NCBI GenBank assembly: GCA_021789495.1
Contig: JAJYJM010000017.1
Location: 1 to 43,689 of the forward strand
DNA from: Nitrospirota bacterium
Lineage (GTDB): Bacteria; Nitrospirota; JACRHJ01
Direction: 5' to 3'
DNA length: 43,689 nt
The notes under the pieces were generated by a model. The model was not told the origin of the DNA. It did not search any database and worked only from the letters and a program-made list of their open reading frames with translations. Below, in pieces: positions 1,354-40,740 of this stretch; position 1 is the first letter of the stretch, and each line of letters opens with the position of its first letter. The position numbers and the translations under genes are program-made.

Positions 1354-1710
1354 ATGAAGACTTATAAGGCATTGATTCTCGCGGTTTTTGCCGCGTTGGC
1401 GCTTGCGGCGTATGCGTTTGCAGATACAGGTTATTCAAAAATAACAAGGGGTTACGATCCATATGCCGCACTTAGCCTGAAAGAGGGGAGCGGTGTCCTG
1501 CACGATTATTACATCGGCCTGCACAGCCCCAACGGCAATTGCGTCACTAAGGTCATCAGGGCGCAGTCGCTTGCGGAAGCGGTAGCTAAGGGCTTGAAAA
1601 CATGCAGAAATTGCGCGGTATACAATCTGACGGACAATTTTACCGGGAATAACAAGGCCTTTGAGATCCAGAGCCTGAGGTATTGCCCGATAAGCGGGCC
1701 GCGCAAGTAA
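1354..1710 (+). CDS. Small secreted four-cysteine protein (paralogue 3 of 3)
   Basis: 118 residues from the ATG at 1354, which has AGGGAGG (1341-1347) upstream; a longer in-frame start at 1276 lacks this and would bury the signal peptide. Signal peptide about residues 1-23 (ends AYAFA). It contains YYIGLHSPNGNC and cysteines at 63, 84, 87 and 111 (C-x20-C-x2-C-x23-C). The region between signal peptide and domain differs from the paralogues, so only the four-cysteine domain is conserved. No separate promoter is evident, so it may be co-transcribed with paralogue 2. Function unknown. Confidence 0.8.
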   Translation: MKTYKALILAVFAALALAAYAFADTGYSKITRGYDPYAALSLKEGSGVLHDYYIGLHSPNGNCVTKVIRAQSLAEAVAKGLKTCRNCAVYNLTDNFTGNNKAFEIQSLRYCPISGPRK

Positions 1711-1811
1711 AAAGAGGGCAAAAACGCCTTCTTTGCCCGCTTCCCGTGACATGCAAATCGCGCCCCCGCGCCCTGATTTTGCCCCGTGATTCGCCCGCGA
1801 ATGTCCCGTAA

Positions 1812-1839
1812 AAAAAATAGGGACACACCCCTATTTTTT
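1812..1839. terminator. Bidirectional terminator
   Basis: Perfect 11-bp stem AAAAAATAGGG (1812-1822) with CCCTATTTTTT (1829-1839), six-base loop. The A and T runs make it work in both directions: for the secreted-protein genes on the plus strand and tRNA-Leu on the minus strand. Confidence 0.8.
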
Positions 1840-1859
1840 CATGTCGTCTGATATGGATT

Positions 1860-1946
1860 TGGTGCCGGCGGCCGGAATCGAACCGGCACATGGTTGCCCA
1901 TACTGGATTTTGAGTCCAGCGCGTCTACCAGTTTCACCACGCCGGC
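1860..1946 (-). tRNA. tRNA-Leu (anticodon CAA)
   Basis: 87 nt read on the minus strand. Acceptor GCCGGCG pairs with CGCCGGC and CCA is encoded. The anticodon stem-loop CTGGA-CTCAAAA-TCCAG gives anticodon CAA, reading UUG. A long variable arm (ATGG-GCAA-CCAT) is typical of class II leucine tRNAs, and the T arm contains GGTTCGATTCC. It is transcribed alone from its own promoter toward the bidirectional terminator at 1812-1839. Confidence 0.95.
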
Positions 1947-1976
1947 ATACTGGAGGTGTGGAACCCGCGAAGTAGA

Positions 1977-2005
1977 AATATATTATACATTCGCCTTCCC
2001 GTCAA
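1977..2005 (-). promoter_or_regulatory. Promoter of tRNA-Leu
   Basis: Read on the minus strand: TTGACG (2005-2000), 17-base spacer, TATATT (1982-1977). A TATAAT overlaps at 1987-1982 but would give a spacer of only 12. The predicted start is about 25 bases before the tRNA. Confidence 0.6.
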
Positions 2006-2016
2006 CCTCTTTTTGC

Positions 2017-2046
2017 TTGCGCTGATGCCATGCCTTTATATATAAT
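2017..2046 (+). promoter_or_regulatory. Promoter of the conserved hypothetical / transketolase operon
   Basis: TTGCGC (2017-2022), 18-base spacer, perfect TATAAT (2041-2046); transcription would begin about 20 bases before the gene at 2073. It is divergent from the tRNA-Leu promoter. Confidence 0.55.
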
Positions 2047-2072
2047 CCAGATACTTAAAAGGCGAACTCATC

Positions 2073-2516
2073 ATGCTTACCGGCTTCAACACCGATTTCC
2101 GGTACAAAGGTACCGTCTATCATGTCCAGACAGAGGATAACGGCACGTCCAATCCCGTTATCGTTACACTCCTGTACAAGGGCGGAGCCATACTCGCGGC
2201 ACGGAAGACCAGCTATGCCGATATTCTGAAGTTCAACAAGCTGGAGAAGGTTGTCCGGGAGATAATGGAGGAGCAGCACAAGCAGGTCATAAAAGACCTG
2301 GTGGCGGGGAAATTCACGTCAGCGGAGGGGCAGGTCTCAAAACCGGATATGCCTGCGCCCGTTCCGGTTTCCACTCCCGCCGTAAAAACGAAGGCCGAAC
2401 ACGGCACAGAGACGGCGGAAGAGGCCGTTGAGAGGGCGCTTAAGGAAAAAGGGCTTGACACGGAGATTCTTGATTACCTGGCGTTCGAGGACGACAGGGA
2501 TGAAAAGGGGGATTGA
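2073..2516 (+). CDS. Conserved protein of unknown function
   Basis: 147 residues, acidic and probably cytoplasmic, with no signal peptide or membrane segment. The N-terminal 75 residues (GFNTDFRYKGTVYHVQTED, then a beta-rich stretch ending in KTSYADIL and a helix) match, from memory, a family seen in Desulfobacterota, Nitrospirota and Acidobacteria with no assigned function. The C-terminal half is a Pro/Ala/Glu-rich linker followed by an acidic tail (LDYLAFEDDRDEKGD), suggesting a small folded domain with a flexible partner-binding tail. Its stop overlaps the first possible transketolase start, so the two are probably translationally coupled. Confidence 0.8.
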   Translation: MLTGFNTDFRYKGTVYHVQTEDNGTSNPVIVTLLYKGGAILAARKTSYADILKFNKLEKVVREIMEEQHKQVIKDLVAGKFTSAEGQVSKPDMPAPVPVSTPAVKTKAEHGTETAEEAVERALKEKGLDTEILDYLAFEDDRDEKGD

Positions 2517-38036: not shown

Positions 38037-38069
38037 TTTTTTTGATATTGGACATAAAGAGAGTTGCAA

Positions 38070-39515
38070 ATGCCGACAATATCGACAGCCGACCTCGCAG
38101 CCATCTCGCCTGAGATAATAGTATTGTGCTCGGCGATGGCCGTTCTTATCATGGGCCTTTTCGTAAAGAAGGAATGGCGCTTCCTGCTCGGCTATCTCTC
38201 CGTTGCAGGGCTGGCCGCCGCGGCGGACAGGACATGGGCGATGAGGTCCGTCGTCCATGGCGCGTTCTCCGGCATGTTCATACTCGACGGCTATGCGACA
38301 TACTTCAAGATGGTCTTCTATGTCGCGGCGGCGATTGCGCTCCTTATCTCCATAAGCTACGTCAGGATGGAGAATATCGAGAAGGGCGAATACTACGGCC
38401 TTATACTCTTCGCTACGGCGGGCATGATGGTCATGGCCTCCGGCTCGGATCTGATGACCGTATATCTCGGCATTGAGCTTATGGCGCTTTCGATTTACGT
38501 CCTGGCCGGGTTCTTGAGAAAATCCCTGAGAAGCAACGAAGCCGCGCTGAAGTATTTCCTTCTGGGCGCGTTCTCGTCCGGGATACTCCTTTACGGCATC
38601 GCGCTCATCTACGGCATCACCGGCACGACAAACCTGCACGACATTGCGGCGTTCATCCAGACCGGGACATACAGCAAACCAGCGCTTATACTTTCCATGA
38701 TTCTAATGCTGGCGGGTTTTGGATTCAAAGTCGCGGCGGTTCCGTTCCACATGTGGACGCCGGATGTCTACGAAGGCGCGCCGACGTCAGTTACAGCCTT
38801 CATGTCCGTAGGCCCTAAGGCCGCCGCGTTTGCGGCGTTCCTCAGGGTGTTCATAACCGCGCTCCCGCAGATACAGGCGGACTGGACCATAATCATCGCG
38901 GCCCTGGCGATACTTTCCATGCTCATAGGGAACGTCGTCGCCATATCCCAGACCAACATCAAAAGGATGCTCGCATATTCCTCCATCGCCCATGCCGGGT
39001 ATGCCATGGTCGGTTTCGTAGCCGGCGGGGCGGAGGGCATCTCAAGCGTAATGACCTACCTGCTGATATATGTCTTTATGAACCTCGGCGCGTTCGGAAT
39101 GGTCGTGGCGCTCAGCAGAGGCGGGATGACCGGCGAGCGCATAGAGGACTTCGCGGGCCTTTCCAAGAAGAACAAGATGGCGGCGCTCCTCATGCTGATA
39201 TTCATGTTCTCTCTTGCGGGTATCCCTCCGACCGCAGGGTTCATAGGGAAGTTCAACATCTTTATGGCCGCGCTTAACTCCGGGTTTTTGTGGCTCGCCC
39301 TGATAATGGTCGTGATGAGCGCAGTCTCTGCCTTTTTTTATCTCCGTGTTGTGCTCGTGATGTATATGAAGGAGCCTGAGGACGACAGAAAGCTCACCCC
39401 AAATCTCTCCATGTACACGGCAATGGCTGTCGCCGCATACGCCGTCCTGTATATCGGCATGAACCCTTCAGGGGTCATCGACTTCGCCATGAAATCCGTC
39501 TCCGGGCTGATGTAG
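38070..39515 (+). CDS. nuoN: NADH-quinone oxidoreductase subunit N
   Basis: 481 residues from the ATG at 38070, with AGAGAG upstream; a TTG at 38064 is the other candidate. About 14 membrane helices; LGIELMALSIYVLAGFLRKS with the conserved glutamate, EAALKYFLLGAFSSGILLYG, GFGFKVAAVPFHMWTPDVYE, ISQTNIKRMLAYSSIAHAGY and SLAGIPPTAGFIGKFNIF are family marks. Last gene of the operon; no clear intrinsic terminator follows within 100 bases. Confidence 0.96.
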   Translation: MPTISTADLAAISPEIIVLCSAMAVLIMGLFVKKEWRFLLGYLSVAGLAAAADRTWAMRSVVHGAFSGMFILDGYATYFKMVFYVAAAIALLISISYVRMENIEKGEYYGLILFATAGMMVMASGSDLMTVYLGIELMALSIYVLAGFLRKSLRSNEAALKYFLLGAFSSGILLYGIALIYGITGTTNLHDIAAFIQTGTYSKPALILSMILMLAGFGFKVAAVPFHMWTPDVYEGAPTSVTAFMSVGPKAAAFAAFLRVFITALPQIQADWTIIIAALAILSMLIGNVVAISQTNIKRMLAYSSIAHAGYAMVGFVAGGAEGISSVMTYLLIYVFMNLGAFGMVVALSRGGMTGERIEDFAGLSKKNKMAALLMLIFMFSLAGIPPTAGFIGKFNIFMAALNSGFLWLALIMVVMSAVSAFFYLRVVLVMYMKEPEDDRKLTPNLSMYTAMAVAAYAVLYIGMNPSGVIDFAMKSVSGLM

Positions 39516-39783: not shown

Positions 39784-39813
39784 TTGACACGGAGATGCCG
39801 AGGGAGCTATACT
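39784..39813 (+). promoter_or_regulatory. Strong promoter of the structured-RNA region
   Basis: Perfect TTGACA (39784-39789), 18-base spacer, TATACT (39808-39813). Transcription would begin at about 39820-39822. The preceding 39516-39783 has no gene; it holds one 17-base palindrome (39657-39673) and AT-rich patches. Confidence 0.75.
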
Positions 39814-39820
39814 AATTATA

Positions 39821-40282
39821 GGTAAAGGTTCTATAACCCATTGTTCTTTGACAATAATTTCTCTGCGGACGAGGCGTAAAAGGCTTGTTTCATTGCGGGT
39901 TCATCGAATGGGGGCCTGCCGCACAGGGCAGCGCCCGTCTCTTGCCTCCTTTCGGGACGGGTGAGGTTACTGGCAAAGGCCCCCATAACCAATGAATTTC
40001 GCTGAGATAAGTCTCCACCAGGTTCGCAGGGAATGATAATTGGGGATAGGATAGAAGAAGGCCTGTGAAGGAGGTGAGAATAGTCCTTTGGAAAATGTCC
40101 TATCCTCAAGGAAAAGCAAAAGAAATAGATACCGCGCTGGTTCACGCTGGTGAACGTCAAGCTCATCCGTAGGGCGCCTTAAAGCCGCCTCAAAGCGTGG
40201 CAGGCCGGGCCTTTAAAGCCTCAATGATGACCTGTTACTGACGGATCGGGAAAAAGGAACATAAAGCGCGGTATCTGTTTTC
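39821..40282 (+). ncRNA. Candidate large structured non-coding RNA (unassigned)
   Basis: About 460 nt downstream of a strong promoter with no convincing protein gene on either strand. Long-range pairing is clear: ATGGGGGCCT (39908-39917) with AGGCCCCCAT (39977-39986), 10 bp perfect; 40042-40052 with 40097-40107, 11 bp with two G-T pairs; AGATACCGCGCT (40127-40138) with AGCGCGGTATCT (40265-40276), 12 bp perfect; ATCCGT (40165-40170) with ACGGAT (40241-40246) nested inside. Local hairpins: ATTGT/ACAAT (39840-39855), CCCGTC/GACGGG (39934-39961), GTTCAC/GTGAAC (40140-40155). GTTTTC after the last helix may mark the 3' end. I see no RNase P, tmRNA, SRP or 6S hallmarks. Identity unknown. Confidence 0.6.
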
Positions 40283-40290
40283 TTGCCGTT

Positions 40291-40740
40291 TCATCTCATT
40301 TGGGGGCTGGTTTTGTCCTGTGTTTCATCCGAGGATTTAATCATTTCCTTTAGCCACTCAGGCGGCCTTACGGGTTTTCCCTGTCCGTCCATGAAGGCGT
40401 GCAGAGTAGCACCCTCGGCCAGTTTTTCGCCGTCACGTGACCAGCCGACCAGCCTCAATATCTCATACTTAAACCCCAGCCGCACTCCCTTGAATTCCGT
40501 TATTTCAGTCCTGATTGCAAGCAGGTCGTCGTATCTGGCAGGCTTGAAATACCTGCATGAAACTTCAATAACCGGGAGGTAAAATCCCTCGTTTTCAAGG
40601 TCGATGTATGGTCTGCCAAACGAGCGTATGAGCTCCGTCCTGCCAATCTCGAAATAAGTCATGTAGTTGCCGTAGTATACGAAACCCATCTTATCGGTCT
40701 CGGCATAGGTTACGCGATGTGGAAAGTCGAAGCTTGTCAA
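40291..40740 (-). CDS. YbgC/4HBT-family acyl-CoA thioesterase
   Basis: 149 residues, single hotdog fold. RVTYAETDKMGFVYYGNYMTYFE (in part AETDKMGFVYYGNY) with the catalytic aspartate D16 is the 4HBT signature; YFKPARYDDLLAIRT and GATLHAFMDGQGKPVRPPEW follow the family pattern. Hydrolyses acyl-CoA thioesters; substrate not determinable. The C-terminal 15 residues are a polar tail. Overlaps the upstream radical SAM gene by four bases and is not next to tol-pal genes, unlike classic ybgC. Confidence 0.88.
   Translation of the reverse strand: MTSFDFPHRVTYAETDKMGFVYYGNYMTYFEIGRTELIRSFGRPYIDLENEGFYLPVIEVSCRYFKPARYDDLLAIRTEITEFKGVRLGFKYEILRLVGWSRDGEKLAEGATLHAFMDGQGKPVRPPEWLKEMIKSSDETQDKTSPQMR

Follow-up and report, generated by a model that had tools for sequence, protein, structure and literature searches.

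Large structured bacterial RNAs without a protein product are few, and several of those that have been characterized proved unusual. OLE, ROOL and GOLLD, all of them included as families in Rfam release 15, are long and highly structured RNAs of this kind, and ROOL and GOLLD are encoded typically by phages and prophages. RNase P RNA and tmRNA are single-copy structured RNAs comparable in size to the one described here, and 6S RNA is likewise single-copy and structured. OLE, ROOL and GOLLD employ kissing loops, and many GOLLD RNAs exceed 800 nt (PMC12286853). The alpha-r14 or 'cuckoo' sRNAs have three hairpins, every one of which bears CCUCCUCCC, and one of these sRNAs, NfeR1 of Sinorhizobium meliloti, silences mRNAs through these unpaired motifs (PMC10746234).

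In this work we analyze a locus on a Nitrospirota contig of 43,689 nt (the window) that encodes what appears to be a single-copy, independently transcribed RNA of about 470 nt. Like the alpha-r14 sRNAs, it has its own promoter, three structured elements in series and an unpaired anti-Shine-Dalgarno motif that is conserved while the stems vary. Unlike them, it presents a single 12-nt loop with a different motif on one long arm, contains a large conserved third domain, reaches about 470 nt, belongs to another phylum and matches no Rfam family. In one feature it would act as anti-Shine-Dalgarno sRNAs do, but it is not an alpha-r14 member, since it fails the three-motif definition of that family (PMC10746234). 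With OLE, ROOL and GOLLD it shares length, a high degree of structure, the lack of a protein product and possible kissing loops, but it is shorter than GOLLD and, in contrast to ROOL and GOLLD, absent from the phages and viral contigs searched.

Table 1. Features of the RNA locus and of its homologue. Coordinates are window positions, except where L031 (in NC_groundwater_1774) is given; domains and helices are predicted.
Feature	Coordinates	Strand	Remarks
Sigma-70 type promoter TTGACA-18-TATACT	39784-39813	+	11/12 consensus bases; TTGACA 39784-39789, 18-nt spacer, TATACT 39808-39813
Structured noncoding RNA gene (predicted)	39821-40290	+	about 470 nt; based on fold z and homologue; 3′ end approximate
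Domain 1	39859-40033	+	closing helix P1 39859-39870/40022-40033, 12 bp
Helix P2, inside domain 1	39908-39986	+	39908-39916/39978-39986; perfect 10-bp inverted repeat in window (39908-39917/39977-39986)
Hairpin P3, tip of domain 1	39934-39961	+	invariant 12-nt loop UUGCCUCCUUUC at 39942-39953
Domain 2 hairpin	40040-40109	+	outer helix P4 40040-40050/40099-40109; inverted repeat 40040-40051/40098-40109, 11/12 paired; internal loop AAGGAGGUGAGAAU
AAGGAGGUGA, domain 2	40068-40077	+	candidate pairing partner for 39942-39951
Domain 3	40111-40292	+	closing helix P5 40128-40137/40266-40275; perfect 12-bp inverted repeat in window (40127-40138/40265-40276), within 28-nt arm pair
Hairpin P6, GUUCAC-GCUG-GUGAAC, in domain 3	40140-40155	+	loop position 4 is A in homologue
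Helix P7	40165-40246	+	AUCCGU 40165-40170/ACGGAU 40241-40246; closes variable insert
Convergent 4HBT thioesterase	40291-40740	-	Pfam PF03061/PF13279
Homologous RNA	L031, about 1573-2160		in NC_groundwater_1774
Homologue promoter TTGACA-16-TATAAT with TG extension	L031, 1539-1566		12/12 consensus bases; same position as in window

A preliminary description of this stretch had proposed a near-consensus promoter followed by long complementary segments, laid out as three domains in a row. The promoter is present (Table 1) and the 5′ end of the RNA is placed from its position; 0.8 promoter-like sites of this quality are expected by chance in the 901-bp region examined, so the promoter by itself proves little, and the perfect promoter at the same place in the homologue adds weight. 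The repeats that had been named are also present, and the region 39821-40295 folds with an energy of -192.6 kcal/mol, compared to a mean of -150.1 kcal/mol (sd 6.5) for dinucleotide shuffles (z -6.49; 0/100 shuffles equally stable). The predicted fold agrees with three domains in series. No clear terminator was found for the window copy.

The nucleotide search for homologues that had been suggested returned one real second copy among 99 related genomes. It is located in the metagenome-assembled genome Nitrospirae bacterium NC_groundwater_1774 (G005, contig C31, JACRHJ010000047.1), which belongs to another genus of the same family, and the match consists of three collinear segments (E 1.2e-13, 4.8e-6 and 0.0086); its contig was named by scanning about 85,000 species for motifs of the RNA. 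The two RNAs are 62% identical. Folded alone, the homologue again gives the three domains (z -5.8), and a terminator-like hairpin lies downstream of it.

All 62 pairs of the seven helices P1-P7, which were placed by hand after both folds had been seen and in a manner that may favour pairing, are standard in both genomes, against 22-32 pairs in controls where the partner strand was slid by one to three bases. Twelve pairs changed between the genomes, five of them doubly and seven singly, with none broken. Covariation is clearest in P1, where 7/12 pairs differ and all seven still pair (four by double change); P4 shows one double and one single change with all pairs kept, and the changes in the P3 stem also preserve pairing. 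The helices of domain 3 (P5-P7) are invariant and therefore uninformative for covariation, yet informative as conservation: P5 is the same in both genomes, and domain 3 has the highest sequence conservation of the three, with its covariance model scoring 172 and 248 bits for the two copies. The homologue has about 50 additional nt in the insert closed by P7.

With two sequences and hand-placed helices, this covariation is modest and does not lend itself to formal significance of the R-scape type. A sequence-only alignment yields a consensus fold with z -6.7, equalled by 0/100 column shuffles. Automatic consensus folding counts 14 double changes against a mean of 16.5 in shuffled alignments; since these counts include misaligned pairs and the double changes do not exceed those of the shuffles, the claim of covariation rests on the hand-placed helices. 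The fold thus surpasses shuffled sequences in independent homologues, and its pairs are kept through compensating changes. Gene, promoter, three-domain fold and an invariant loop predicted to be exposed all emerge from the comparison of the two genomes. Because conserved pairs are combined with independent folds and with a promoter in each of the two genomes, it can be concluded firmly that this is an RNA gene: as judged from sequence, it is very probably real, new and structured, and probably transcribed independently.

The absence of a convincing protein gene, also put forward in the preliminary description, is borne out. The largest plus-strand open reading frame within the RNA encodes 38 aa, a minus-strand frame of 111 aa is not conserved, its counterpart in the homologue being closed by a stop after 17 codons, and no reading frame common to both RNAs was found over any length. 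Two in-frame peptides, IPRWFTLVNVK and LTFTSVNQRGI, were rejected as well, being seen on both strands and coinciding with the invariant P5 and P6; invariant RNA segments force such short matches on both strands. The sense frame of the peptides in the window runs between a TAG and a TAA and lacks a suitably placed start codon. That the locus has no RNA function, being a chance fold, what is left of a repeat or an overlooked protein gene, is favoured by the small number of homologues and nothing more, and is highly improbable given that all 62 pairs are kept with 12 of them changed, that promoters and folds occur in both genomes and that no protein frame is conserved. The two observations named beforehand as speaking against an RNA, unconserved helices and a protein gene covering the region, were thus not encountered.

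The Rfam scan proposed in the preliminary description found no family of release 15 above its gathering threshold for the window RNA, and nothing convincing at E up to 5 (the best match, Atu_L1, is spurious at 12.4 bits against a cut-off of 60). The homologue has no match either, the best being sR52 at 16.2 bits (cut-off 50). None of the OLE, ROOL and GOLLD covariance models matches the locus in the scan of the whole of Rfam, and ARAGORN predicts no tRNA or tmRNA there. RNase P, tmRNA and 6S had not been recognized in the sequence; their models match elsewhere in both genomes and not at the locus, and a missing housekeeping RNA was rejected on these grounds. Every tested helix being kept in the homologue with compensating changes, and Rfam holding no match, the results agree with the new large structured RNA that had been suggested.

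Two covariance models, R1 for domain 3 and R2 for domains 1-2, were searched across 396 genomes of the phylum, and the convincing matches are the two known copies only; a search of the 38 nearest genomes with looser filters gave no further copy. Weaker matches in G035 (in a 23S-5S spacer), G188, G207, G344, G265 and G303 looked like chance, the latter five lying within or next to unrelated sequence, and R2 matches in G013 and G084 were dismissed because the other conserved motifs are absent. These are the weaker matches that were inspected, and the remaining low-scoring R1 matches span E 0.003 to 0.08. The scan of about 85,000 species produced 16 matches, among which the other motifs are present in the Nitrospirae one only, and phages, plasmids and viral contigs (the latter in two motif scans) gave no match.

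None of the other four genomes in the window's genus (one 96% complete, three 75-88%) contains the RNA, and a close relative of the window nuoN is also absent from them, so loss or exchange of a block of genes is possible. A mis-binned contig is another possible source of this patchy distribution; the assembly has a rated completeness of 97% and contamination of 0%. The genome has two nuo-type operons, at window 38064-39515 and at G000:C8:12278-13699. For the window operon, G005 offers a close relative (nuoN 70% identical) and the four other genus genomes offer none (best 36%). The placement of the RNA 'after nuoN', given in the preliminary description, is incidental: in G005, nuoN lies on a contig other than that of the RNA. 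The thioesterase is the only neighbour of the RNA that the two genomes have in common, its homologue (59% identical; G005:C31:26817-27194) being likewise convergent to the RNA, and the remaining neighbours differ. Beside the G005 RNA, L031 522-1247 (minus strand) encodes an alanine/proline/lysine-repeat protein that begins with CETCG-type cysteine motifs and lacks a Pfam match.

The P3 loop, which forms the tip of domain 1, does not differ between the two genera despite the 62% identity of the RNAs, and its predicted unpaired probability is 0.91-1.0 in both genomes. It contains CCUCCUUUC, which we take to be the core of the 16S rRNA 3′ end (anti-Shine-Dalgarno), and it would therefore pair with strong Shine-Dalgarno sequences. 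We propose as the most likely mechanism, with a probability of about 0.4, that the RNA is a trans-acting regulator blocking translation through this exposed loop. Targets, switch and partner would, we infer, be arranged as follows. Domain 1 would form a long, rigid arm with the 12-nt loop exposed at its end, and this loop would base-pair with GAAAGGAGGCAA-type ribosome-binding sites and block the start of translation, a mode of action established for NfeR1. The AGGA-GUGA loop of domain 2 may pair with the same loop and cap it from within, which would let the RNA switch between closed and open forms, and domain 3 may bind a protein or ligand by which the RNA is stabilized or controlled. An extension of this scheme is improbable: a new class of bacterial RNA switch with mutually capping anti-Shine-Dalgarno and Shine-Dalgarno-like loops, in which domain 3 would sense a ligand or protein and free the loop, silencing many mRNAs at once. 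The domain 2 loop (window 40068-40077, L031 1861-1870) has a common core, AGGA-GUGA, which resembles both a CsrA site and a Shine-Dalgarno sequence.

Genes with AAAGGAGGCA before the ATG number 8 in one genome and 12 in the other, and they include one orthologous pair, the lipoprotein-like L125/L124 (63% identical), with predicted duplexes of -19.2 and -20.0 kcal/mol. In L125 (1501-1516; G000:C50:7078) and in L124 (1501-1516; G005:C40:12476) the loop-complementary GAAAGGAGGCA stands just before the ATG, in leaders that are otherwise unrelated. The first 150 aa of the L125 product have no Pfam match. This common candidate target is a lead only and may be due to chance: strong Shine-Dalgarno sequences are common, and strong ribosome-binding sites are often conserved.

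Against such a regulator it can be argued that a simple antisense RNA would hardly need 470 nt to carry one anti-Shine-Dalgarno loop, that the single common candidate target may be fortuitous and that the loop can pair internally with domain 2 instead. The last point leads to the main rival reading, of only slightly lower probability, in which the RNA is a scaffold or a self-assembling RNA or RNA-protein particle like OLE, ROOL and GOLLD, its domains packing by tertiary contacts and the domain 1 loop forming a kissing interaction with domain 2, either within one molecule or between two. The length, the three rigid domains and the high sequence conservation of domain 3 are in line with this, as is the pairing of the UUGCCUCCUU loop (39942-39951) with domain 2, which is 10/10 in the window (two G-U) but 8/10 in the homologue, where the two mismatches are uncompensated. 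The lack of an Rfam match to those three families, and of any match in the phage, viral and plasmid collections, also argues against it.

A local role, in which antisense read-through or shared termination would let the RNA regulate the thioesterase gene convergent to it, draws on the constancy of this neighbour while others differ. It is nevertheless unlikely, as the RNA ends short of the gene, the terminator-like hairpin of the homologue lies about 137 nt before the gene's stop, and antisense overlap needs no elaborate conserved fold. The same conserved neighbour in two genera also weighs against an orphan RNA that would have served a mobile element as guide or template (an omega-RNA, a retron or a group II intron remnant) and now lacks its protein. 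The preliminary description had raised such an element, and a large structured RNA with terminal inverted arms would suit it, but the RNA is single copy in its genome, has no viral, phage, plasmid or Rfam match, and shows no recognizable nuclease or reverse transcriptase among its immediate neighbours; this very improbable reading is already disfavoured.

The RNA is thus new, has no Rfam entry and comes from a poorly known lineage, its spread being so far very narrow (two related Nitrospirota genomes). This very narrow known spread suggests that similar RNAs are undetected in other deep-branching groups. The RNA has defined helices and, in its invariant anti-Shine-Dalgarno loop, offers a directly testable clue.
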